64,000 nucleotides of DNA from Carboxydocella thermautotrophica (GTDB lineage Bacteria; Bacillota; GCA-003054495; Carboxydocellales; Carboxydocellaceae), in contig CP028514.1 of the NCBI GenBank assembly GCA_003054495.1, positions 298,501 through 362,500 on the forward strand, in the 5' to 3' direction. Shown one piece after another: positions 3,282 through 25,588 of the stretch (positions are counted from its first letter, which is position 1; the number at the start of each line of letters is the position of its first letter). The notes under the pieces are model-generated. The model saw nothing but the letters and a program-made list of their open reading frames with translations, searched no databases and was not told the DNA's origin. A program made the translations under genes and the position numbers.

Positions 3282-3779
3282 TTGGATAAAAACATGGAAA
3301 GGGAAATTCTTGAGCTACTGGAACAGAATAGCCGCTACACGACGGCGGAAATAGCAAGCTTGCTGGGAGAACCGGAGGTGGAGGTGGCCCAGGCTATCGC
3401 CCGACTGGTGGCGGACAGGGTAATTGTCAAATACCATACCATCATTAACTGGGAGAAATTCGGTGATGATGCTGTTTCCGCCATGATCGATGTCAAGATC
3501 ACTCCCCAGCGGGATAAGGGCTATGATGCCGTAGCCCGGCGCATCTACCGCTATCCGGAGGTCAAGTCGGTTTTTCTGATGTCAGGTGCTTATGACCTGG
3601 CGGTACTGATCGAGGGACGCACTCTGAAGGAAGTAGCCCTGTTTGTGGCGGAAAAACTGGCTACTCTTGAAGATGTGCAGAGTACCACCACCCATTTTGT
3701 GTTAAAAAAGTACAAACAGGCCGGTGTAATTCTGGATGAGGATGCCGGTGATGATGAGCGGCTGGTGGTGTCACCGTGA
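3282..3779 (+). CDS. Lrp/AsnC-family transcriptional regulator (AlaR-like)
   Basis: 165 residues: winged helix-turn-helix at about 5-60 and an AsnC ligand-binding (RAM) domain at about 70-150. The TTG start follows GGGGAGGG. It overlaps the aminotransferase gene by 4 bases (GTGA), so the two are translationally coupled. B. subtilis has the same arrangement, alaR (yugG) followed by alaT (yugH), where the regulator controls the adjacent aminotransferase. Paired 12-bp repeats upstream suggest autoregulation. Confidence 0.88.
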   Translation: MDKNMEREILELLEQNSRYTTAEIASLLGEPEVEVAQAIARLVADRVIVKYHTIINWEKFGDDAVSAMIDVKITPQRDKGYDAVARRIYRYPEVKSVFLMSGAYDLAVLIEGRTLKEVALFVAEKLATLEDVQSTTTHFVLKKYKQAGVILDEDAGDDERLVVSP

Positions 3780-4942
3780 TTGAGAAGGTGGCCACTCTGG
3801 TCCGGGAGCTTCCGCCTTCCGGGATCAGGCGCTTTTTTGACCTGGTAGCAGAAACTCCAGGGGTGATTTCCCTGGGGGTAGGGGAACCGGATTTCGTCAC
3901 ACCCTGGGCGGGCCGGGAGGCCTGTATCTGGGGTCTGGAAAAGGGAAAAACCCATTACACCAGTAACCACGGCTTGCTGGAACTGCGGGAAGCCATTAGC
4001 AGGGATGTGGAAGCAAACCTGGGAGTAAAGTATGACCCCAGACAGGAGATTATGGTGACAGTTGGGGTCTCGGAGGCACTGGATGTCGCCTTAAGGGCCC
4101 TGCTCAATCCCGGGGAGGAAGTAATAATCCCGGAACCCTCATATGTTTCCTATCAGCCCTGTACTTTACTGGCAGGGGGGCAACCGATAACGGTAGCGAC
4201 CCGCTGGGAAGACGGATTTCGGCTGACTCCGGCGGCGCTGGAGCGGGCCCTCACCCCTCGTACCAAAGCATTATTGCTTTGTTATCCCAACAACCCTACC
4301 GGTTCCACCCTCAGTCGCCAGGACCTGGAAGGGATCGCCGAAATCGCCCGGGCCCGTGATCTTATCGTTATTGCCGATGAAATTTATCATCATCTGACCT
4401 ATGGGCGGCAGCATTTCAGTATCGCGGCTTTACCGGGCATGAAAGAGCGTACCATTTTGCTAAATGGTTTCTCCAAAGCCTATGCCATGACAGGCTGGCG
4501 TCTGGGCTATGCCTGCGGTCATCCTGATTTGATCAATGCCATGGTGAAAATTCACCAGTATACCATGCTCTGTGCCCCGATTACAGCGCAGCTGGCCGCA
4601 CTGGAAGTGCTGAAGAGCTGCCGGGGGGAAATGGAGGCAATGGTACGGGAATATGATCGACGGCGGCGACTGGTAGTGGCTGGATTGAGGGAAGCAGGCC
4701 TGGAGTGCCATGAACCGGAAGGGGCCTTTTATGTCTTTCCTTCCATTCGCAGTACAGGACTAACTTCCGAGCAGTTTGCCACCGAGTTGCTGCGGGAGCA
4801 AAAGGTGGCGGTAGTGCCGGGGTCGGCTTTTGGGGCAGCCGGCGAAGGCTGTATCCGTATTTCCTATGCCTATTCCCTGGCCCAGTTACAGGAGGCTTTA
4901 AAGCGTATCAGGATGTTTGTGCAGTCCAGGATGGCAGGATAG
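3776..4942 (+). CDS. Class I/II pyridoxal-phosphate aminotransferase
   Basis: 388 residues, normal for fold-type I aminotransferases. The PLP lysine is in NGFSKAYAMTGWR; the CYPNNPTGS motif and the C-terminal arginine in GCIRISYAYS are present. It overlaps its Lrp-type regulator. Substrate is not fixed by sequence: B. subtilis AlaT is the closest contextual match, but the downstream arylacetate-CoA ligase and IorAB suggest it may feed aromatic 2-oxo acids into oxidative decarboxylation. Confidence 0.88.
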   Translation: MIEKVATLVRELPPSGIRRFFDLVAETPGVISLGVGEPDFVTPWAGREACIWGLEKGKTHYTSNHGLLELREAISRDVEANLGVKYDPRQEIMVTVGVSEALDVALRALLNPGEEVIIPEPSYVSYQPCTLLAGGQPITVATRWEDGFRLTPAALERALTPRTKALLLCYPNNPTGSTLSRQDLEGIAEIARARDLIVIADEIYHHLTYGRQHFSIAALPGMKERTILLNGFSKAYAMTGWRLGYACGHPDLINAMVKIHQYTMLCAPITAQLAALEVLKSCRGEMEAMVREYDRRRRLVVAGLREAGLECHEPEGAFYVFPSIRSTGLTSEQFATELLREQKVAVVPGSAFGAAGEGCIRISYAYSLAQLQEALKRIRMFVQSRMAG

Positions 4943-12793: not shown

Positions 12794-13060
12794 GTGGCAA
12801 AATACTCCTATGCCGAATTGGCTTATCGCATCCTCAGGGAGGCACAAAGACCCTTACCGGTACGGCAATTGCTGGAACAGGTAGTGGCTGAACAGCAAAA
12901 AAATGAAGGCCAGCTCAAGGGCAGTTTGCCCCAGCTGATGGCTAGTGCCTATACGGAAATCAACCTGGACCAGAGATTTGTTCACCTGGGTGAAGGGCTG
13001 TGGAGCATACGGGAACTGGTAGGTACCAGGACCACCCCTGATGACAGCTGGGATATCTAA
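12794..13060 (+). CDS. rpoE: RNA polymerase delta subunit, short form
   Basis: 88 residues from a GTG start (AGGAG 9 bases upstream). It consists of the HARE-HTH domain that is the N-terminal half of RpoE delta; the long acidic C-terminal tail of B. subtilis RpoE (173 residues) is absent. Delta stimulates RNA polymerase recycling, and in Bacillus the tail is needed for displacing nucleic acid. The gene is next to pyrG as in B. subtilis, which supports the identity despite its small size. Confidence 0.75.
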   Translation: MAKYSYAELAYRILREAQRPLPVRQLLEQVVAEQQKNEGQLKGSLPQLMASAYTEINLDQRFVHLGEGLWSIRELVGTRTTPDDSWDI

Positions 13061-13061
13061 C

Positions 13062-13091
13062 TTGACAATTATCGACGCCACAAGCTAAAAT
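13062..13091 (+). promoter_or_regulatory. pyrG promoter
   Basis: TTGACA (13062-13067), 18-base spacer, TAAAAT (13086-13091), starting right after the rpoE stop codon and upstream of a terminator hairpin that precedes pyrG. Confidence 0.7.
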
Positions 13092-13109
13092 AGTACAGTA
13101 TGGAAAAAA

Positions 13110-13147
13110 AACAAATCAGCTGGTACACGGCTGATTTGTTCTTTTTG
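13110..13147 (+). terminator. Terminator hairpin in the pyrG leader (candidate attenuator)
   Basis: AACAAATCAGC (13110-13120) pairs with GCTGATTTGTT (13130-13140) across a 9-nt loop, followed by CTTTTTG. It lies between a strong promoter and the pyrG ribosome-binding site. In B. subtilis the pyrG leader terminator is bypassed when CTP is low; here the start region lacks the GGGC initiation sequence of that mechanism. Confidence 0.8.
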
Positions 13148-13165
13148 TGAGGGGGCAAAATTATA

Positions 13166-14761
13166 ATGACCAAGTACATCTTTGTGACGGGCGGAGTAGT
13201 TTCATCACTGGGAAAAGGGATCACTGCGGCCTCTTTAGGTCGGCTCCTGAAAAGCAGAGGCCTGAAGGTGGCTATCCAGAAGTTTGATCCCTACATCAAC
13301 GTGGATCCCGGCACCATGAGCCCCTACCAGCACGGTGAAGTCTTTGTTACCGATGACGGAGCGGAGACAGACCTGGACCTGGGGCATTATGAGCGCTTTG
13401 TCGACATCAGTGTTACCAAAAACTCCAATGTGACCACCGGCAAAATCTACTGGTCGGTAATCAGCAAGGAACGGAAAGGGGACTATCTGGGCGGAACAGT
13501 ACAGGTTATTCCCCATATCACCAATGAAATCAAGGACCGGATTTACCGGGTAGCCAGGGAGTCCAATCCTGATGTAGTGATTACAGAAATCGGTGGTACT
13601 GTCGGTGACATCGAGTCCCTGCCTTTTCTAGAGGCCATCCGGCAGATTAAAGGGGATATCGGTAAGGAAAATGTCCTTTACATTCATGTTACCCTTGTAC
13701 CTTATATTAAAGCTGCTGGTGAGCTGAAAACCAAGCCCACCCAGCACAGTGTCAAGGAGCTGCGCAGTATCGGGATAAAGCCGGATGTTATCGTTTGCCG
13801 GACCGAACGGCCTTTGTCCCGGGAGATGGAAGAAAAACTGGCCCTGTTCTGTGACATCGATCCTGAAGCAGTGATTCAGGCAGTAGATGCTTCGTCCATA
13901 TATGAAGTGCCGCTGATGCTGAAAAAAGAGGGCCTGGATGATATCGTGATCGAAAAACTGGGCTTAACCTGCGGGGAAGCGGATTTGCGGGAATGGGAAG
14001 AAATCGTGGAAAAGGTCAAGAATCCCCGCGCCTTTGTCAATATCGCTGTCGTCGGTAAATATGTGGAGCTGCCGGATGCCTACATGAGTGTGGCTGAGGC
14101 CCTGCGCCATGGCGGTATTTATCACGAAGCTGCTGTTAATATCCTCTGGGTCAGTGCCGAGGAAATGGAACGCCGGGATCCGGCCGAGTTGCTGGCTGAA
14201 GCTGATGGTATCCTGGTACCCGGTGGCTTTGGGGATCGGGGAATTGAAGGCAAAATCCGGGCCATCAATTATGCCCGGGAGAAAGGGATTCCTTTCCTTG
14301 GTATTTGTCTGGGTATGCAATGCGCTGTGATCGAGTTTGCCCGTAATGTAGCCGGATTGAAGGGAGCTAACAGTTCCGAGTTTGGTGACACTCCCTATCC
14401 TGTTATCGACCTGCTGCCGGAACAGAAGGATATCGAGGAAATGGGAGGAACCATGCGATTGGGCATCTATCCCTGCAAGCTCGCCAGTGACAGCAGGGCT
14501 TATACGGCCTACGGGGAAGAGCTGATTTATGAACGCCATCGCCATCGTTTTGAATTCAATAACGAGTTCAGGGAACAGCTAACTGAGCTGGGCCTGGTGA
14601 TTTCCGGTACCAGTCCGGATGGGCGGCTGGTAGAAATTGTGGAATTGCCGGATCACCCCTGGTTTGTGGCTACCCAGTTCCACCCTGAATTCAAGTCCCG
14701 GCCTAACCGGCCCCATCCCCTGTTCCGGGATTTTGTCGGTGCAGCTCTGAATAGGGCATAA
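13166..14761 (+). CDS. pyrG: CTP synthase
   Basis: 531 residues. The N-terminal amidoligase domain starts [17 protein letters not shown]; the C-terminal class I glutamine amidotransferase domain has the catalytic cysteine in FLGICLGMQ and the His-Glu pair in QFHPEFKS. It converts UTP, ATP and glutamine to CTP. GTGAGGGGG lies about 10 bases before the ATG. Its leader holds a promoter followed by a terminator, suggesting control by premature termination. Confidence 0.97.
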
Positions 14762-14807
14762 GCCAGCAAAGCCCGCCATAAGCTGTAAGGAGAAGGGTGG
14801 GAACAGC

Positions 14808-15758
14808 ATGAAAAAAAGGCTCATAGTCCTTGTGTTGCTCGCTGTGATCGTAATCCCGGTACTGCTGGCCATTAAACAAAATGGTTTGGGAGGAGAAGGA
14901 AAGAAAAAGGCTGCACTCCCTAAAGGCGGGGATAAAATCGGAATTATATATGTCGAAGGGCCCATTGTAGGCGGTCGCTCAGAGGATGGAATCTTTGGCC
15001 AGGCGGTAGCTGCTGGTGATGATTTGATGGAGCAACTAAGGGAGGCCCGGGAAGATGATAGCATCAAGGCGGTAATCCTGCGCATAAACAGCCCGGGCGG
15101 CAGTGCAGCTGCTTCCCAGGAGGTAGGCGAAGAAATCGACCGCCTGCGGGAAGCCGGTAAGGTGATAGTCACTTCCATGGGGGATGTGGCGGCATCTGGC
15201 GGTTACTGGCTGGCTGCCAAAACCGATTATATTGTGGCTAATCCCGCTACAATGACCGGCAGTATCGGTGTGATTATGCGGTTTCAGGAACTAAAAGGCC
15301 TGTATGACAAGCTGGGCATTACCGATAATACCATCAAATCCGGGCCGTTGAAGGATATTGGCAGTGAAGCCCGGCCTATGACTCCGGAGGAAAAGGCTTT
15401 GCTGCAGGGCATGGTCAATGACATCTATGAACAGTTTGTGGATGTAGTGGCTGAAGGGCGCAAATTGCCCCGGGAAAAGGTCAAGGCCCTGGCTGATGGC
15501 CGGATTTTCACCGGCCGCCAGGCCAAAGAGGCCGGGCTGGTAGATGAACTGGGCAACTTCTATACCGCAGTGGAAAAAACCAGGGAGTTGGCCCATCTGG
15601 ATGAAGAAGCAGAACTGGTAGAACTGGGTAAACCTTCCCCCTGGCGCAAGATCTTCGGCAGCACTGAAACTGTCGGACTGAGCGGGCCTTTGCGCCTGTC
15701 TCCTGCGGAAGAAGTCGCTCTTAAGAAGCTGTTGAGTGGAATCAAAGGGGGAGAATAG
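14808..15758 (+). CDS. sppA: Signal peptide peptidase SppA (serine protease, short form)
   Basis: 316 residues with an N-terminal membrane anchor (about 4-22) and a ClpP-like protease domain. The catalytic serine is in GDVAASGGYW and the general-base lysine in SGPLKDIGS, as in B. subtilis SppA. It cleaves remnant signal peptides in the membrane. It is followed after one base by the Yip1-family membrane gene, so the two form an operon. Confidence 0.92.
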   Translation: MKKRLIVLVLLAVIVIPVLLAIKQNGLGGEGKKKAALPKGGDKIGIIYVEGPIVGGRSEDGIFGQAVAAGDDLMEQLREAREDDSIKAVILRINSPGGSAAASQEVGEEIDRLREAGKVIVTSMGDVAASGGYWLAAKTDYIVANPATMTGSIGVIMRFQELKGLYDKLGITDNTIKSGPLKDIGSEARPMTPEEKALLQGMVNDIYEQFVDVVAEGRKLPREKVKALADGRIFTGRQAKEAGLVDELGNFYTAVEKTRELAHLDEEAELVELGKPSPWRKIFGSTETVGLSGPLRLSPAEEVALKKLLSGIKGGE

Positions 15759-15759
15759 C

Positions 15760-16404
15760 GTGGGTTTTCTGGATTTAATTTATGGTGTATTTGTGCAGCC
15801 CCGGCGTCTTTTTCGCTCTCTGGCGGAACAGCCCCGGCCGGGTGCGGCATTTCTGGCTGTAATCATAGTTGCGGTCCTGAATCTGGTTACTCAGGTTTAT
15901 GTGGTTTTACCGGGGGAATTGAATAATGTTCCTCAAGGGGCAGAGGAGCTGGCCCTCGTTCAGGAGTTTTTTCGCCTGCCTTCCATGCAGATTTTGATGA
16001 TCATTGCAGGGGCGTTGTTTTCCCTGGTCTGGTTAGTAATGCAAGCGGGGTATTTTCAGGTACTGGCGGAGATGTTAGGGGGAATACCCCGCTCTGCTCT
16101 GGCGCTGTTTTCAGCACTTGCATTGGCCCAAACGGTGCAAGTAGTAATGATCCCCCTGCAGGCGCTGGTGGCAATAGGGGTGCTCAATCAATTGTTACTG
16201 GGGTTAGGAGCACTGATTGTATATATTTACAGTTCCCTGATCCTTCCCTACTGGGCTATGCGGGAAATCAGCGAACTCAGCAGTGGTCGCACCTTGTTGG
16301 TTGTATTTTCGCCTCTGTTGATTTTCCTGGCGTTCCTGATTTTAATCGGGGCAGGTATTGGGATAGCTGTTCAGCATTTTGGCGATTTTTTCAATTCTCT
16401 ATGA
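15760..16404 (+). CDS. Yip1-domain integral membrane protein
   Basis: 214 residues from a GTG one base after the sppA stop, preceded by GGGGGAG. The N-terminal GFLDLIYGVFVQPRRLFRSL region and five predicted membrane segments match the bacterial Yip1/DUF1282-type family. Function is unknown. Coupling to sppA suggests a membrane-related role. Confidence 0.75.
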   Translation: MGFLDLIYGVFVQPRRLFRSLAEQPRPGAAFLAVIIVAVLNLVTQVYVVLPGELNNVPQGAEELALVQEFFRLPSMQILMIIAGALFSLVWLVMQAGYFQVLAEMLGGIPRSALALFSALALAQTVQVVMIPLQALVAIGVLNQLLLGLGALIVYIYSSLILPYWAMREISELSSGRTLLVVFSPLLIFLAFLILIGAGIGIAVQHFGDFFNSL

Positions 16405-16419
16405 AAAAGACTTTACCTC

Positions 16420-16447
16420 AACCGCAGTGCGAACTGCGGTTTTTGTT
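16420..16447 (+). terminator. Intrinsic terminator after the sppA operon
   Basis: AACCGCAGT-gcga-ACTGCGGTT stem (16420-16441) followed by a T run interrupted by one G. Confidence 0.85.
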
Positions 16448-16492
16448 TGTCCAGCATAATATATGATTGTTTATAAAATTCCTGCCTTTTTG

Positions 16493-16521
16493 GCAGGAAA
16501 AGTTGTTTTTGTGCAGAATAT
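16493..16521 (+). promoter_or_regulatory. Sigma-H promoter of spo0F
   Basis: GCAGGAAAA (16493-16501), 11-base spacer, GCAGAATAT (16513-16521). Both halves fit the sigma-H consensus RNAGGAWWW-N11-12-RNNGAATWW at every position. B. subtilis spo0F is also transcribed by sigma-H. The -35 half overlaps the right arm of a hairpin (TTCCTGCC-ttttt-GGCAGGAA, 16479-16499). Confidence 0.75.
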
Positions 16522-16554
16522 GGAATTAAGCTAGTGAGATTGGGGGGACTAAAT

Positions 16555-16914
16555 TTGGCAGAAAAGAAAATTTTAATTGTGGATGTCCAGGTAGGAATTC
16601 GCATGTTAATGCGAGAAGCGCTCAAGGATTTAACCAGTCAGCTGGAAATGGCAGCTAGCGGCCAGGAAGCGATTGAAAAATTTCTTAGTTTTCAGCCAGA
16701 CATCATGTTGATTGACTTGAAAATGCCGGGGATGAATGGTTTGGAAGTTTTAGAAGCATTGCAGGATAAACGCGAAAAATGTCGAATTATCTTAATGACG
16801 GCATACGGGGAGCTAGATGTGATGTCCCAGGTGCCTAAAATAGGCATTGATGAGTATTTGACCAAACCTTTTGATATCAACGAGTTGCGCCAGATCATAA
16901 CCAGATACCTGTGA
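16555..16914 (+). CDS. spo0F: Spo0F-like sporulation response regulator with altered acidic pocket
   Basis: A 119-residue stand-alone receiver domain from a TTG start (GGGGGG 7 bases upstream). Numbering matches B. subtilis Spo0F: D10, phosphoacceptor D54 in LIDLKMPGMNG, T82 in ILMTAYGELD and K104 in TKPFDI are conserved. Residue 11, normally Asp and a Mg2+ ligand, is Val (codon gtc). Spo0F passes phosphate from sporulation kinases to Spo0B in the phosphorelay. The sigma-H promoter and the neighbouring fba gene agree with the Bacillus locus. Loss of D11 may weaken phosphorylation. Confidence 0.85.
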   Translation: MAEKKILIVDVQVGIRMLMREALKDLTSQLEMAASGQEAIEKFLSFQPDIMLIDLKMPGMNGLEVLEALQDKREKCRIILMTAYGELDVMSQVPKIGIDEYLTKPFDINELRQIITRYL

Positions 16915-17008
16915 TAGTGGGACAAAATTTTTATGGGTGGGACCAAAAACGTAGCAGGAATTTGGGGGTTGATGGCGAATACTCAATTTCGAGTGAGGTG
17001 TAAAAGCA

Positions 17009-17680
17009 ATGGTCATTACAACCCAGGCCAGTGTTGCGATCAGGTGTCCTGCCTGTGGACGGCTGGAACTGCATAGTTTGTCGCTTTTTCAACTGAATAA
17101 GGGTCAGAGCCTGGAAATTTTCTGTTCCTGCGGAGCACGGGTAGCAACTTTTAAGATGAAAAAAGGACAGGAAGTTTATTTGCAGGTGGATTGTGTCCTC
17201 TGTGATGCCAAACATCTCTACCAGTTCCACCGCAAACAGGTATGGGGCAAGAAGGTGCTGAACCTGATCTGTGCTGACAGCAAACTGGATCTGGGGCACC
17301 TGGGCCCGAAAGAGCAGGTAGCCCGCCTGGTGAAAAACCACGAGGCCGAGTTGCTGAAATTGCTGCAGGAGATAGAGGATGCCGACTATTTTCGGGCCCC
17401 GGAAGTGATGTTACAGGCGGTCAGTTATCTGCAGGACCTGGCGGTAGATGGGGCGGTTTATTGCAGTTGTGGCAATCCCCATATCGGCATGGATCTTCTG
17501 CCTGACCGAATAGAACTGCATTGCCGGGATTGTGATGCGGTAGGGGTAGTTTATGTGGAGAATGAACAGGAATTAGCTGCTATCAAAAGCCTAAAGGAAG
17601 TAGAATTGACTGCCGGCAGCCTGTCAATTATTGAACCGCCGCTGTTTTCTCCCTATCCCCAGGGACAAACCAAAAAATAA
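17009..17680 (+). CDS. Multi-zinc-ribbon protein of unknown function
   Basis: 223 residues, not recognised as a named family. Cysteine pairs occur as CPAC, CSC, CVLC, CSC and CRDC, which suggests two or three zinc ribbons, with a helical segment (about 95-145) in the middle. GTGAGGTG lies 8 bases before the ATG. No signal peptide or membrane segment is seen. It lies between spo0F and fba, which are adjacent in B. subtilis, so it is an extra gene in that block. A terminator follows. Confidence 0.75.
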   Translation: MVITTQASVAIRCPACGRLELHSLSLFQLNKGQSLEIFCSCGARVATFKMKKGQEVYLQVDCVLCDAKHLYQFHRKQVWGKKVLNLICADSKLDLGHLGPKEQVARLVKNHEAELLKLLQEIEDADYFRAPEVMLQAVSYLQDLAVDGAVYCSCGNPHIGMDLLPDRIELHCRDCDAVGVVYVENEQELAAIKSLKEVELTAGSLSIIEPPLFSPYPQGQTKK

Positions 17681-17707
17681 GCATAGAAGAGTTTGGGCTG
17701 GTCATAT

Positions 17708-17745
17708 ACTAAACTTGCAGGGACAAGTTTAGTATTTTCCTTTTT
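17708..17745 (+). terminator. Intrinsic terminator upstream of fba
   Basis: ACTAAACTTG (17708-17717) pairs perfectly with CAAGTTTAGT (17724-17733), then a T-rich tract. It separates the zinc-ribbon gene from fba. Confidence 0.8.
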
Positions 17746-17779
17746 CAGCCTATTTAAAAATATTAAGGAGGTTATCCGT

Positions 17780-18634
17780 ATGGCACTGGTACCGATTACC
17801 GAACTACTGAAAGAGGCAGAAGCTGGCGGATATGCCGTCGGTGCCTTTAACTGCAACAACATGGAAATTGTCCAGGCGATCATCGCTGCAGCTGAAGCGG
17901 AAAAGGCTCCGGTTATCATGCAGGCCAGTCAGGGAGCCATCAAATATGCTGGATTGGATTACATAGTGGCAATGGCCAGAACAGCAGCGGAAAAAGCTAC
18001 TGTGCCGGTGGCCCTGCATCTGGACCATGGCACCAGCTTCGAACAGGTGATGAAATGCATCCGGGCGGGCTTTTCGTCCGTCATGATCGATGGTTCCAAA
18101 TTACCCCTGGAAGAAAATATTGCTCTTACCAAAAAAGTTATTGACGTGGCCCATGCAGTAGGTGTTTCCGTAGAAGCGGAACTGGGTAAAATCGGTGGTA
18201 CTGAGGATGATATCTCTGTAGATGAAAAAGAGGCTTTGTTCACCGACCCGGAAGAAGCCCGCATTTTTGTAGAGCGCACCGGCGTAGATGCTCTGGCTGT
18301 GGCTATCGGTACTGCCCATGGTCAGTACAAGGGAGTGCCCAGGCTGGATTTTGAGCGGTTGAAGAAAATTCGCTCCCTGGTAAATGTTCCCATCGTTTTG
18401 CATGGTTCTTCCGGTGTACCTGATGAAGCCATCCAGGAAGCCATCCGTCTGGGGGTGCGCAAGGTAAATATTGACACCAATATCCGGGAAGCCTTCGTCG
18501 CCGCCATGCGGGAAGTGCTGGCTCGGGATGAAAAGGAAATTGATCCGCGCAAGGTGCTGACTCCGGCCAGGGAAGCGGCTATTGAAGTAATCCGGGAAAA
18601 AATACGGGTATTCGGGAGCAGTGGTAAAGCATGA
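17780..18634 (+). CDS. fba: Class II fructose-1,6-bisphosphate aldolase
   Basis: 284 residues from the ATG at 17780 behind AAGGAGG. Zinc ligands lie in [10 protein letters not shown], the conserved [12 protein letters not shown] and in [11 protein letters not shown]. It interconverts fructose-1,6-bisphosphate with the two triose phosphates. It overlaps the transaldolase-like gene by 4 bases (ATGA). spo0F-fba-tal order is as in B. subtilis. Confidence 0.95.
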
Positions 18635-19278
18635 GATTGTTTATTGATACAGCCAATATCGAAGAAATTAAAGCAGCTAACGATTTAGGAGTCATTGCCG
18701 GAGTTACCACTAACCCGTCCTTGATTGCCAGAGAAGGACGAAATTTCGAAGAGGTAGTACGGGAAATCTGCGCTATTGTGGATGGGCCCATCAGTGCCGA
18801 GGTAATCAGCACTGAAGCGGAAGGGATGCTGGTTGAAGCCCGGCAGCTGGCAGCTATTCATCCCAATATCGTGATCAAAATCCCCATGACCGGCGAAGGT
18901 TTGAAAGCGGTTAAGGTGCTGGCTAAAGAAGGGATTCGCACCAATGTCACTCTGATTTTTTCCGCCAGCCAGGCCTTGCTGGCTGCCCTGGCGGGGGCCA
19001 CTTATGTCAGCCCCTTTGTCGGGCGCCTGGATGATATCAGCCATGATGGTATCCAGCTGATTGCCGATATCGCTGCCATTTTCGACTTGCACGGACTGGA
19101 AACGGAAATCATCGCTGCTTCCATCCGTCATCCCATGCATGTAGTTGAGGCAGCCAAAGCGGGTGCCCATATTGCCACCATCCCATACGGGGTATTGCAA
19201 CAAATGCTGAAGCATCCATTGACTGACATCGGGATTCAGAAGTTCCTGGCCGACTGGCAAAAGGTAGCAGGCAAGTAA
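18631..19278 (+). CDS. fsa: Fructose-6-phosphate aldolase / TalC-type transaldolase
   Basis: 215 residues, the length of the short FSA/TalC class. It starts [13 protein letters not shown], has GVTTNPSLI, and the Schiff-base lysine in [10 protein letters not shown]. Members act either as transaldolase (pentose-phosphate pathway) or fructose-6-phosphate aldolase; transaldolase is more likely for Firmicutes in this position. It is translationally coupled to fba. Confidence 0.9.
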
Positions 19279-19281
19279 AAT

Positions 19282-19318
19282 AAGGCCCTTCCCCGCGGGG
19301 AAGAGGCCTTTTTTGTTT
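19282..19318 (+). terminator. Intrinsic terminator after fba-fsa
   Basis: GC-rich stem AAGGCC-c-TTCCCC with GGGGAA-ga-GGCCTT around a small loop, followed by six T residues. Confidence 0.9.
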
Positions 19319-19631
19319 TAGGAAATTATGCTTTAAGGCTTGATGTGGATAACTTAGAGTGTTAAGGTAGAAATATGAGGACAAGTGATGAAAGAAAAGA
19401 GACAAGCAATAAAGATAGTAGACATACTCAAGAACCATTGAAAGTGTCATTAAAGCAGTAGAAAAAGCCAGTTTTTCCGCTTATTTCGAGAGTTTGCTTG
19501 GTTTTCAGACATGCGAAAGTTGAGTTAGTAAATTATGAGTCCTGTTTGCTTTTGACTGCAGGCAGTTTTTTGTTTTTCTAGATTAATATTGTTAAAATTA
19601 AAAAAGTTCTAGGAGAGGAGGGAGGAGAACT
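19319..19631. other. Gene-free AT-rich boundary of the first island
   Basis: 313 bp without a supported gene. Composition drops to AT-rich here and stays so to about 26.2 kb. Only very short open frames (for example from 19375 and 19388) are seen, without ribosome-binding sites of note. The segment must hold the promoter of the sensor kinase gene, but no clear -35/-10 pair was identified. A GAGGAGGGAGGAG ribosome-binding site lies at its end. Confidence 0.5.
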
Positions 19632-21506
19632 TTGAAAAAAATATATTCTAAGGGCTTAATTTTTCAGATTTTAGTTTTAATAGGAATGGTATTGTTGATA
19701 ACATCAGTTCTGTCTTTTTTTATACTTTGGGAAATAAATCAAACACAAAAAGTTTTATTAGAGCAACAGAAAAGTAATCTTAATAAGATTTTAGAAATAG
19801 TTATCTCTAAAACGATTCCATTATATGAATTTAAAAAGACCAATTTTAAAATAATTGGAAAGAAACAGAAAAAAATAAATATAACTGTACCTAAGATTAG
19901 CATATCAAAACCATTTGGATTAGAAATTAAAAAAGTTATAGATTCTATTAGTAATAACTTTCCTAAAACAGAGATTGGATTTTATTCTTTAGAAAATCAG
20001 ATTATTATAAGTAATAGTCTGCCTGGCGAGATTTCTTTAATTGAAACTTTTACACCAAATCAACAAAATATTTTTATAAATGTAATTAGAAGTAGAAATA
20101 AAATAATAAGAGTAAATAATCAGAACGGTAGTATAGAGGGTTATTCACCTGTTTATGTAAACGGTAAAATTATTGGTGTAGTTTGGGTACGAGAAAATTT
20201 ACAACCATCAATACAAAATCTTGAAAATAGCAGGAATAAAATTTATAAAATAATTATATTAGGTTTTTTAGTTGGTATTAGTGGTAGTGTTTTTTTAATA
20301 AATAATTTTGAAAAAGAGGTAAAAAAAATAAAATATGGCCTGTCACAGTTAAAACAAAATTTAAATACTTTTATACCTGTTAGTGTAGGCCCGATAGGTG
20401 AGATCGCCAAAGCAATTAATAGTTTATCTGAAGAATTAAGAAGAGTTTATGGTTATAACAAAATAATATTAAATAGTATTGATGAAGGAATATTGGCATT
20501 GGATTTTGACAAGAAAATAATTTTAATTAATAGAGCTTTTATAAACATATTACAGATAAACCCGGTTATTGAAATGAACAATAAAAAGTATACTGAAATA
20601 ATAATTGAAGATGAAATTAAACAGGTGATAGATGAAACGTATAAATATGAACAAGGAATAAAAGATAAAAAAATAACATTAACAAATAGAGCAAAACAAC
20701 AAATAGATTTATTGATAGGAACAGCAATATTAAAAGATTTCAATGAAAAATTCTTGGGTATAGCTTTAACAATAAGAGATATAACTGAAAGAGAAAAAAT
20801 GCTTAGCATTATCAGACGAAGTGAAAGGTTAACATCTTTAGGGACGCTAGTGGCTGGGGTTGCTCATGAAATTCGCAATCCTCTTACTGCGATACATGGT
20901 TATATTCAATTTTGGCTAAAAAAAGGAAATCAAATTCCTAGTCAAAAAGCTTTAAAAACGATAACTAGAGAGATTGAACGTTTAAATAACCTGGTTGAAA
21001 AACTGCTTTTTTTTGCTAAACCACAACAGATAAATCTGATAGAACAAAATGTAAATCATATAATTAAAAAAGTTTTGGCTTTTGTCCAAGAAATTATTCC
21101 AACTTCTATAAAAATAAAAATTGATTTACAGCAAAATTTACCCTTGATTAGATGTGATGAAAGTCAACTGGAAATTGTTTTTAATAATATAATTTACAAT
21201 GCTATACAAGCTATGCCAGATGGTGGGACATTACATATTACTACCTGGTTTGATGAAAAACAGCAAGCCATAAAAATTAGTTTTAAAGATACTGGAGTGG
21301 GCATACCAACTCAGTTATACTCTAGGTTATTTGATCCTTTTTTTACTACAAAACCTAAAGGTATGGGATTAGGTTTGGCTATCGCATATGAAATTGTAAA
21401 AAATCATGGTGGGGAAATAGAAGTTCATAGTATGGAAAATAAAGGCAGTGAATTTGTTGTAATATTATCCTTAAACCACCCTGTTCCCCAAGAGTGTTGG
21501 GAATAA
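19632..21506 (+). CDS. NtrB-like sensor histidine kinase with extracytoplasmic domain
   Basis: 624 residues from a TTG start behind a strong ribosome-binding site. Order: membrane segment (about 12-33), extracytoplasmic sensor region (34-205), second membrane segment (206-226), linker, PAS domain (about 275-390), HisKA with the phospho-histidine in AGVAHEIRNPLTAIHG near residue 411, and HATPase_c with NAIQAMPDGG, DTGVGIP and GMGLGLAIAYEIVKNHGG. The family phosphorylates NtrC-type regulators; one is encoded 547 bp downstream. Codon usage is strongly AT-biased (AAA, ATA, TTA), unlike the surrounding genes, a sign of transfer. The sensed signal is unknown. Confidence 0.88.
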   Translation: MKKIYSKGLIFQILVLIGMVLLITSVLSFFILWEINQTQKVLLEQQKSNLNKILEIVISKTIPLYEFKKTNFKIIGKKQKKINITVPKISISKPFGLEIKKVIDSISNNFPKTEIGFYSLENQIIISNSLPGEISLIETFTPNQQNIFINVIRSRNKIIRVNNQNGSIEGYSPVYVNGKIIGVVWVRENLQPSIQNLENSRNKIYKIIILGFLVGISGSVFLINNFEKEVKKIKYGLSQLKQNLNTFIPVSVGPIGEIAKAINSLSEELRRVYGYNKIILNSIDEGILALDFDKKIILINRAFINILQINPVIEMNNKKYTEIIIEDEIKQVIDETYKYEQGIKDKKITLTNRAKQQIDLLIGTAILKDFNEKFLGIALTIRDITEREKMLSIIRRSERLTSLGTLVAGVAHEIRNPLTAIHGYIQFWLKKGNQIPSQKALKTITREIERLNNLVEKLLFFAKPQQINLIEQNVNHIIKKVLAFVQEIIPTSIKIKIDLQQNLPLIRCDESQLEIVFNNIIYNAIQAMPDGGTLHITTWFDEKQQAIKISFKDTGVGIPTQLYSRLFDPFFTTKPKGMGLGLAIAYEIVKNHGGEIEVHSMENKGSEFVVILSLNHPVPQECWE

Positions 21507-21516
21507 ATCACAAATA

Positions 21517-21596
21517 AACGGCCGATGATGGCGGCAGCGTATAAACGCCCACCGCAAGAGGCCATTATACACCACGCTCCTTTTCGCCTGTCAAGG
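21517..21596 (-). repeat. 80-bp repeat, copy 1, with minus-strand promoter-like pair
   Basis: This GC-richer segment resembles 54884-54965 at roughly three of four positions. On the minus strand both copies keep TTGACA (here 21594-21589) and a -10-like hexamer (TATAAT, 21569-21564) with the same 19-base spacer, followed by a conserved GC-rich stretch. It points back into the end of the sensor kinase gene. What it transcribes, if anything, is not evident. Confidence 0.6.
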
Positions 21597-22053
21597 GCGA
21601 GCGGAGCTGCTGTGTGGCCCTTGTCAGGCTCAAGACCGCGGCGTCAGGGGCAGTCAGGCGGTGTGCGGAAAGGAATGATTCTGTTTTTCTTGCTTAATCA
21701 ATAAAGATTAGCACTTTGACAACCAGGAGTCGGGATAGTCAGGCTAACATCCATTCGGGCTAAGACCCTGTAAAGGAGCATTTCTGACATTCCACCTCCA
21801 GTGCAGGCAGAACGAGGGAAATTAGGGCAAAGACCCTGTGAGACATGGGAGGGTTGCCGCTGGAGAATATGTGGAATTCTACCGACCAGATATTGTAAAA
21901 TGCATAAGCGGTCTGGTTGTGGTTACCCATATTCATCCAAGATTATGCACTGCCGTTATAATCAGCCAAATGGTTGGTTATTGTCAAAGTGAAATCTGAG
22001 ATTAAGCGAGAAAAACGGAGAAATTTAAAACCTTATGAAGGAGGGATCAGTAC
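21597..22053. other. Structured gene-free gap between sensor kinase and response regulator
   Basis: About 460 bp with no convincing gene but much pairing potential. TTCCAC-CTCCAG (near 21790) can pair with CTGGAG...GTGGAA (near 21870), enclosing GGCA/TGCC and an AGGG-CAAAG-A-CCCT hairpin; AAGACCCTGT occurs twice; TGCATAA and TTATGCA flank a further ACCAGA/TCTGGT stem near 21900-21950. GC content is higher than in the flanking genes. It matches no riboswitch class I could recall. A cysteine-rich open frame (21801-21992) lacks a ribosome-binding site. Confidence 0.5.
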
Positions 22054-23524: not shown

Positions 23525-23577
23525 TTAAAAAATATATGCATGCCAAATAAATTTAAATTTAAAGGAGGCGTATTTTT

Positions 23578-23826
23578 ATGTTAAAAACAACCAAAAAAAT
23601 TATCTTAGTAGGCACCTTAGCCAGCTTTATAGGTTCTAGTATGGCATTTGCAGCTGCAACACCGGCAAAACCGGCAACTCCGGCAACTCCTACAACTCCT
23701 ACTAAAAAAGTTGAATTAACTGTTAAAAAACCTGTTAAAAAATCCACTAAAAAAGCGGTAAAAAAAGCAAAAAAAATAAAGGCAACTAAAAAAGGAGCAA
23801 AAAAACAAGTGAATAAGAAAAAATAA
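23578..23826 (+). CDS. Small secreted lysine-rich protein
   Basis: 82 residues with a clear signal peptide (about 1-26, ending AFA). The mature part is low complexity: an Ala-Pro-Thr stretch (ATPAKPATPATPTTPT) followed by a tail dominated by KK pairs; about 21 of 57 mature residues are lysine and only one is acidic. The tail resembles histone H1-like basic tails but no family is recognised. AAAGGAGG precedes the ATG. It has its own sigma-54 promoter and terminator, so it is a single-gene transcript probably activated by the upstream regulator. Confidence 0.75.
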   Translation: MLKTTKKIILVGTLASFIGSSMAFAAATPAKPATPATPTTPTKKVELTVKKPVKKSTKKAVKKAKKIKATKKGAKKQVNKKK

Positions 23827-23830
23827 ACAT

Positions 23831-23866
23831 AAAGAAAGGAGTCTGACTGCCAGACTCCTTTCTTTT
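23831..23866 (+). terminator. Intrinsic terminator after the lysine-rich protein
   Basis: Perfect 15-bp stem (23831-23845 with 23851-23865), 5-nt loop. Instead of a long T tract it is followed at once by the 5' end of a group II intron. Confidence 0.9.
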
Positions 23867-24493
23867 GTGCTGTACGCCCAGCATGGGCGTCATCTATAGA
23901 GTAAAAGTCTTGAACTGGGGCTGGCGAGCGCCTACCGTTAGCCAAAGGCAAGGGTGTGCTTCGCGAGGCGGAATCTGAAGGAAGCCGTAGGCAAACGCAC
24001 GGCTTGAGGTACACGAACCCAATTTGAGGCCGTTATAGTCGGATGAGTTGCCAACGCACAACAAAATCCAAAGCCGCCAAAGGCTGTAGCGGTAAACTTG
24101 GGCAAGCGCAGGAGGAAAGATGATGTTCTTATCTGAGGAGGCCTGTGGAATACGCCAAGTGATTTGGTAACCAGAGTCGAAAGATTCTACTGAATCCGCA
24201 GGAGTCAGCAGAGGCTATAGTACGCCAGTATGGGACGCCGGAAAGCGGAAGGGCCGAACCGAAAGGTGAAAAGGAACCGATGCGTTCGTACGACGAGCAC
24301 GACAGCGTCAACCATAATATACTCATGGCTCGAGTGGTCCGCAAGGTGAGAGATAAATTTGTGCTAAGGCTGATACGCGCTTATCTGAATGCCGGAGTGA
24401 TAGTGAACGGGGTCGTCCGGGAAACGGAGGAAGGAACGCCACAAGGAGGACCTTTAAGGCCTCTGTTAGCCAATATTCTACTGGATGACCTGG
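23867..24493 (+). mobile_element. Group II intron fragment (class C-like), 3'-truncated
   Basis: Begins GTGC and contains intron core stretches I recognise from bacterial group II introns (GCCCAGCATGGGCGTCATC, GGCGAGCGCCTACCGTTAGC, GAGGCGGAATCTGAAGGAAG). It starts directly behind a terminator stem, the preferred target of class C introns. The internal reverse transcriptase is reduced to a fragment, and domains V-VI are missing because an insertion sequence joins at 24492. It cannot splice or move by itself. Confidence 0.8.
24280..24493 (+). pseudogene. Group II intron reverse transcriptase/maturase remnant
   Basis: Encodes the palm-adjacent region only: SVNHNILMARVVRKVRDKF, LRLIRAYLNAGVIVNGV and EEGTPQGGPLRPLLANILLD, the conserved RT blocks 2-4. 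The start region before SVNHN does not fit intact LtrA-type proteins and the catalytic YADD block is absent, so the gene is cut at both ends. The frame then runs into the IS end. Confidence 0.82.
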
Positions 24494-25588
24494 TTTTTAG
24501 CGCAAAACAAGAGGCTGAGGGAAAAATTCACCCCAGCCTCAAATGTTGTAAAAAATAAGCAACAGGCATCCACCTGTGGTAAAATTGAAGTTGAAAGACA
24601 AACAATCCTACCCAGGGAGGGATGCCTGTTATGGCTATTATACCACAAATTAAGCTATTTGAGTGGACAGAAACACAAACAATTGGAGATTTAGTTCGTT
24701 TACGGCTGGTTCTGGATTACATGCCAGACGAAGAATTGATGAGGACCCTTGAGAGAAGCCGGGGTAAAGGGCGAAACGATTATCCGGTTCGGGCAATATG
24801 GAATTCCATACTAGCGGGTATTGTGTTCTAGCATGAGAGTGTGGAAAAGAATAAAGCCTGTTATTGACATACGTAACTTGTGGAGAGATGGGGAAAAAAC
24901 CAGGCTTCTGACCAATTACAAGAACGTGGCCTACAATTACAAGGGCAATGTATATTGCTATTGTCCGGAAACCGGAACGCAACGAGAAATGAGTAATGGT
25001 GGTTTTGAAAAAGACAGAGGGACACTAAAGAAGTTATGTCCGGCAAAGCGATACGGAATCAAGTGTCAGGGAATGGAACAGTGTTCAGTTAGTCATGGAA
25101 TACGTATACCGCTAGCGGAAAACCGACGGATTTTCACGTCGATCGACCGGGCAAGTTATAAGTGGGAAAAAGAATATAAAAAACGCACCGCAGTAGAACG
25201 GGTAAATAGCAGACTCGATGTATCCTTTGGATTCGAACAGCATACCATTCGGGGCATGGCCAAAATGAAGCTGCGGTGCGGACTGGCCCTATGTGTTATG
25301 CTAGCAATGGCGATAGGGCGAATCCGGGAGAACCAGGCAGAGAAGATGCGGAGCCTGGTAGCTTAAAAATGAGAATAAAAGTATTCTATATGAGTAAAAA
25401 TTTGCAGGCCAAATGATTTTAAAATCATTCTGGTGCTAAAGGGATTAGTGCGCCCTTTTTTGGGTTTAAATCAAAGAGAGATACCGATACTCTAGCAAAA
25501 CGACTCATAAATTTGTTTAAACTACTAATTTTTATATTAACTTTTCGCAGTTATCATTCTGAAAATGGGTACATCGCAAAAAGCATGT
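24492..25588 (+). mobile_element. Defective insertion sequence, copy A (IS1182/IS5-like, DUF772 transposase)
   Basis: Boundaries come from comparison with copy B (53638-54699): similarity starts at GGTTTTTAGCGC and ends at GCAAAAAGCATGT. The left end holds a GAGGCTG...CAGCCTC hairpin. Outer ends are only weakly inverted (TTTTTAGCG against TTTTTGCG). An internal deletion removes the middle of the transposase. It is inserted in the group II intron fragment. Family assignment rests on transposase features and is tentative. Confidence 0.75.
24631..25366 (+). pseudogene. Transposase remnant of IS copy A
   Basis: The N-terminal part (24631-24831, DUF772-type, ERSRGKGRNDYPVRAIWNSI) ends at an in-frame TAG where a Q codon is expected. 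After ten more codons a deletion joins it, out of frame, to the C-terminal part (about 24850-25366) with KPVIDIRNLW and the conserved KKRTAVERVNSRLDVSFGF block. The central catalytic region is missing, so the enzyme is dead. Confidence 0.85.

Follow-up and report, generated by a model that had tools for sequence, protein, structure and literature searches.

A recent one-base change replaces the Mg2+ ligand Asp11 by Val in the Spo0F of Carboxydocella thermautotrophica 41T and may weaken its phosphorelay

Introduction

Carboxydocella thermautotrophica is a hot-spring bacterium. A stand-alone receiver encoded in its genome resembles Spo0F, which in the sporulation phosphorelay accepts phosphate from the kinases and passes it on to Spo0B, but harbors a valine at a position where Spo0F has an acidic Mg2+ ligand. 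The question raised by this locus is whether the protein is a true Spo0F, how the valine arose, and what such a replacement would do to the relay. The window analyzed here is a stretch of 64,000 nucleotides from strain 41T (assembly GCA_003054495.1, contig CP028514.1, positions 298,501 to 362,500, forward strand), and its features are collected in Table 1.

Identity and genomic context of the protein

The best PDB match of the protein is Bacillus subtilis Spo0F (1fsp; phmmer, E 1.8e-26), with residues 3-119 aligned on residues 3-119, and the eight top-scoring PDB sequences are all Spo0F. PF00072 is its sole Pfam domain (residues 6-115, 94.7 bits), such that both size and architecture fit Spo0F, a protein of ~120 residues with no output domain. 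Because the alignment over residues 3-119 is ungapped, the B. subtilis Spo0F numbering is valid and is employed throughout.

The gene is embedded in a pyrG-spo0F-fba neighborhood, as in B. subtilis, from whose gene order we take the names pyrG and fba. Of 83 orthologous loci, 82 have at least one of these two genes close to spo0F; the exception (L102) is a truncated locus of 2.4 kb that retains three other neighbors of the window spo0F. On the basis of orthology, gene position, and a same-species copy with Asp, the product is a true Spo0F orthologue. It also appears to be the only one, since no second Spo0F was found in the source genome, in which the next receiver matches have E values of 1.2e-19 or weaker. 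A search of plasmid proteins returned distant receivers only (best 43.7%), and 20,000 bases taken from the second contig of the source genome, when compared with plasmids, gave no match.

Between spo0F and fba, positions 17009-17680 encode a 223-residue protein with Cys pairs and no Pfam or NCBIfam match. Relatives of this protein occur near spo0F in 8 of the 83 orthologous loci, making it an unnamed conserved neighbor of clostridial spo0F.

Table 1. Location of spo0F, its key codons, and surrounding features (window positions)
Feature	Position	Strand	Basis
spo0F, stand-alone receiver, 119 aa, TTG start	16555..16914	+	translation, PF00072, gene neighborhood
codon 10, Asp, first acid of metal site, intact	16582..16584	+	sequence, alignment
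codon 11, Val (GTC) with T at base 16586; G001 has A (GAC, Asp)	16585..16587	+	sequence, G001 comparison
codon 54, Asp, phosphorylation site, intact	16714..16716	+	sequence, alignment
codon 82, Thr, switch residue, intact	16798..16800	+	sequence, alignment
codon 104, Lys, intact	16864..16866	+	sequence, alignment
presumed pyrG (CTP synthase), conserved upstream neighbor	13166..14761	+	near spo0F in 67/83 orthologous loci
presumed fba (fructose-bisphosphate aldolase), conserved downstream neighbor	17780..18634	+	in 75/83 orthologous loci
tract identical to G001 bar base 16586, 8.9 kb	12944..21820		G001 alignment

Metal-binding site

The N-terminal segment, translated from the + strand, reads ILIVDVQVGIR, placing the valine immediately after the first acid. 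Relative to the full pocket (D10, D11, and D54 together with T82 and K104), D11 is Val and the other four residues are present. The window protein shares D10, D54, K56, T82, K104, and the K104-P-F-D107 segment with B. subtilis Spo0F (PDB 1fsp, 1pey, and 3q15, among others), from which it differs in the replacement of the Mg2+ ligand Asp11. Judged from its sequence, the incomplete acid pocket undercuts the claim that this protein works as Spo0F does. Aspartate-less receivers, or pseudo-receivers, are a family defined by the loss of the phosphorylated Asp; membership in it was rejected, as the window protein keeps this residue as D54. In the alanine scanning of Spo0F by Tzeng and Hoch (1997), replacements within the acid pocket reportedly eliminated function.

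The original prediction placed a valine at residue 11 and numbered D10, D54, T82, and K104 as in B. subtilis Spo0F, which is borne out by the translation and the ungapped alignment. It also proposed that a change from gac to gtc would suffice, and the second available genome of the species (G001) indeed has GAC at this codon, one base away from the GTC found here. Its third premise, that the acid at residue 11 is a Mg2+ ligand, agrees with the RapH-Spo0F structure, in which Mg2+ is coordinated by Asp11, Asp54, and Lys56 (PMC3035606). According to the same source, a divalent metal is needed for both the autodephosphorylation of Spo0F and its Rap-mediated dephosphorylation. No report of an Asp11 to Val change in Spo0F was found in the open-licence literature, as searched by titles and abstract starts.

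Conservation of residue 11

Asp occupies residue 11 in 83 of 83 Spo0F orthologues compared, a sample chosen by similarity to the window Spo0F and consisting mostly of Bacilli; Spo0F proteins with no Asp11 may exist elsewhere. The sample comprises the best 80 of 546 confirmed matches in GTDB genomes as well as three further loci (L021, L102, and L103), one from the second same-species genome and two from the order; the order and class were searched for further relatives, amounting to four genomes in all. Because the residue never varies among the 83 orthologues, Asp appears to be normally demanded by selection. Thirty-one positions are near-invariant (at least 98.5% conserved among the compared orthologues), and the window Spo0F keeps 30 of them, deviating at residue 11 only. 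A divergent Spo0F class with a different metal site was considered and rejected, given the Asp in all of these orthologues, the same-species genome included.

The paralogues were also inspected. All 19 other receivers fetched from the source genome (from 24 other matches) carry an acid at the equivalent second position. Two of them, L013 ("VDL") and L016 ("VDF"), initially seemed to be devoid of the second acid; these were alignment-gap artefacts, and both proteins read VDD.

Comparison with a second genome of the species

The Spo0F of G001 has Asp at residue 11 and is identical to that of the window at 118 of 119 residues. In the region around spo0F, 3,356 of 3,357 bases are identical, with base 16586 being the sole difference. 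Across the sampled regions, the source genome and G001 exhibit 355 differences in 129,952 aligned bases (2.7 per kb); these differences are clustered by recombination, and no probability is given for the 8.9-kb tract of Table 1. The dN/dS between the two genomes is ~0.07, with 57 non-synonymous and 250 synonymous differences in 107 ORFs of at least 150 residues, which were called mechanically and possibly include a few spurious ones. Purifying selection therefore prevails in this comparison, and against it the replacement of an invariant active-site residue is unusual.

With Asp in G001 and no other difference in the 8.9-kb tract, Val11 is, on this comparison, derived, strain-specific, and young; of the two genomes available for the species, only one carries it. 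A comparison of orthologues had been suggested in the original prediction; what that prediction had missed is that the replacement is a single-base change at the level of the strain.

G001 is probably, by elimination, strain DSM 16521, once named "C. sporoproducens" and described as a spore-former. The NCBI taxonomy places the name C. sporoproducens within C. thermautotrophica and lists a single strain for it, DSM 16521.

Other components of the phosphorelay and sporulation

Both the source genome and G001 encode Spo0A (TIGR02875, 408.6 and 410.4 bits) and Spo0B (SPOB_a, 41 bits, above the cut-off). The spo0B gene is located between rpmA and obg, as read from the translated locus, and its product harbors the motif RRHD, which in B. 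subtilis Spo0B bears the phosphorylated His. Spo0B, which the original prediction proposed to look for, is present.

Genes for SpoIIE, SpoIIIAE, SpoIVA, SpoIIR, and sigma factors are likewise present in both genomes, the individual sigma-factor and smaller spo gene names being presumed from gene order. No stops or frameshifts relative to G001 were found in these genes or in those of Spo0A and Spo0B, within a comparison that covers the 129,952 aligned bases and 21 locus pairs; damage elsewhere may exist. A broken sporulation programme was thus rejected for the sampled genes. Their intactness would be expected from a very recent loss of sporulation and equally from a strain that still sporulates.

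Single amino-acid differences, given with the source residue first and in the numbering of the mechanical ORFs, are S133P in SpoIIE, S167G in the Spo0B ORF, and P136H in Spo0A. The last of these lies in the Spo0A linker (L122, L121), where the source genome, G002, and G003 have Pro; the His of G001 is the changed residue. As this His is private to G001 and the valine of Spo0F is private to the source genome, each strain has a private change in the relay.

Functional consequences of Val11

It is probable, although well short of assured, that the sole Spo0F of 41T has undergone a recent one-base missense change from Asp11 to Val that removed its Mg2+ ligand and that the phosphorelay is weakened or blocked at Spo0F. 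The valine side chain provides no ligand for the catalytic Mg2+, and metal binding would be weaker, while folding and partner binding should be retained. Phosphate uptake from the sporulation kinases and transfer to Spo0B would become much slower, leaving Spo0A under-phosphorylated and sporulation reduced or lost. The original prediction offered two outcomes, namely, that the protein may be poorly phosphorylated or may work differently. The former is the most likely consequence, Asp11 being a Mg2+ ligand (PMC3035606). The latter is unsupported; the nearest genome has Asp in an otherwise identical protein, so that nothing points to a mechanism that was compensated or rebuilt.

The persistence of such a change has a parallel in B. 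subtilis, in which all sequenced oligosporogenous isolates from serial batch culture had phosphorelay mutations, mostly in kinA (PMC11914059). Mutations in spo0F are absent from those listed for these isolates. Where sporulation is not under selection, its loss often begins with a mutation in the phosphorelay, and this could let Val11 persist.

Within Clostridia, the common kinase-Spo0F-Spo0B-Spo0A architecture extends to Desulfotomaculum acetoxidans, in which it was tested in vitro (PMC6136694). The D. acetoxidans Spo0F is phosphorylated, and the phosphorelay proteins of this species and of B. subtilis are reported to be interchangeable (PMC6136694), whereas the Carboxydocella Spo0F has a changed metal site. 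A closer counterpart of the change itself is the D10N variant of the Acinetobacter baumannii PmrA, likewise a natural point change of the equivalent acid of a receiver, which slows phosphoryl uptake (PMC12654582). The described fall in uptake is observable but not striking, which counts against simple loss, and in the isolates output is increased and not lost (PMC12654582). However, PmrA D10N is a limited guide: Asn is not Val, and PmrA, a DNA-binding regulator, is not Spo0F.

The considerable residual activity of PmrA D10N (PMC12654582) also lends itself to the view that Val11 is mildly harmful or bypassed and that 41T sporulates. Residues D10, D54, T82, and K104 would then suffice for slow transfer, or the kinases would phosphorylate Spo0A directly, as is known from Clostridia without a phosphorelay (PMC11210211, PMC6136694). 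The undamaged state of the sampled sporulation genes would fit such a strain. Nevertheless, the genome keeps both Spo0F and Spo0B, and Asp11 recurs in every one of the 83 orthologues, so that a mild or bypassed effect is unlikely, if the strongest competitor of a weakened relay.

A selected change of function is improbable. Val11 would, in this case, alter the kinetics of Spo0F such that, for example, phosphate is both gained and lost slowly and the threshold for sporulation is reset. Changes of the equivalent acid can accompany raised output, as in CheY D13K. The output of the PmrA D10N isolates is also raised (PMC12654582), and autodephosphorylation of Spo0F shares the need for a divalent metal (PMC3035606). 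However, no compensating change is found in Spo0F or in the 8.9-kb tract, and in none of the 83 orthologues is residue 11 a non-acid. Finally, the idea that the strain truly has Asp11 and that Val11 is an error of sequencing or assembly can be given very little weight, for although single-base errors occur and the second same-species genome has Asp, the 41T genome was sequenced at 247x Illumina coverage (PMC6085454), at which an isolated wrong base in a unique region is unlikely.

Sporulation phenotype and significance

A weakened phosphorelay thus remains the preferred reading, and the Val11 Spo0F most likely represents a recent weakening of spore formation and not a novel type of protein. 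The 2002 description of 41T reportedly does not mention spores. Carboxydocella is stated to form endospores with reference to the 2006 description of C. sporoproducens (PMC6687684). It is conceivable, but doubtful, that base 16586 explains a difference between the strains, with 41T (Val11) sporulating hardly or not at all and DSM 16521 (Asp11) sporulating, while both retain their remaining sporulation genes undamaged. Should 41T be non-sporulating, and G001 be DSM 16521, base 16586 would be the leading candidate for the cause of this difference; should 41T sporulate, the bypass or mild-effect reading would prevail.

If the preferred reading is true, the type strain of the genus has a phosphorelay broken by one base at its first acceptor, and a near-identical natural control strain exists. 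The moderate interest of this otherwise ordinary protein rests on that control. The pair would provide a clean natural test, in vivo, of the need for the second metal-site acid in Spo0F, as well as a test of whether this clostridial lineage truly relies on its phosphorelay and not on direct phosphorylation of Spo0A. It would also show how sporulation is lost and would call for caution in classification, as a single mutation may underlie a taxonomic trait (41T and C. sporoproducens were once separate species).

Other differences between the two genomes

Several observations concern regions outside the relay. An ORF of 388 residues (3776-4939) has 73 base differences from G001, of which ten alter the protein, against ~1-3 per kb in most of the flanking sequence; this cluster is probably a recombination tract. 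Indels relative to G001 are found in L148 (226-residue ORF), in L150 (145-residue ORF), and at 23562-24014 (151-residue ORF opposite a repeat protein), none of which was identified as a sporulation gene. An apparent C102* in L152 was considered as sporulation damage and rejected; the reading frame lies on a strand opposite other ORFs and was not taken as a gene.

A small protein with Ala/Pro/Thr/Lys repeats and a signal-like start is encoded at 23578-23826, and its repeat is variable in length, with nine bases (23669-23677) absent in G001. Nearby, a group II intron reverse transcriptase-like fragment and a transposase-like ORF (24280-24558 and 24821-25366) were recognized by eye as remnants of mobile elements. 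Lastly, a sporulation sigma-factor gene at 1821661-1822449 of the source chromosome (L130, L165), presumably sigG, has 22 differences from G001, all of which are synonymous, reflecting either import by recombination or very strong constraint.
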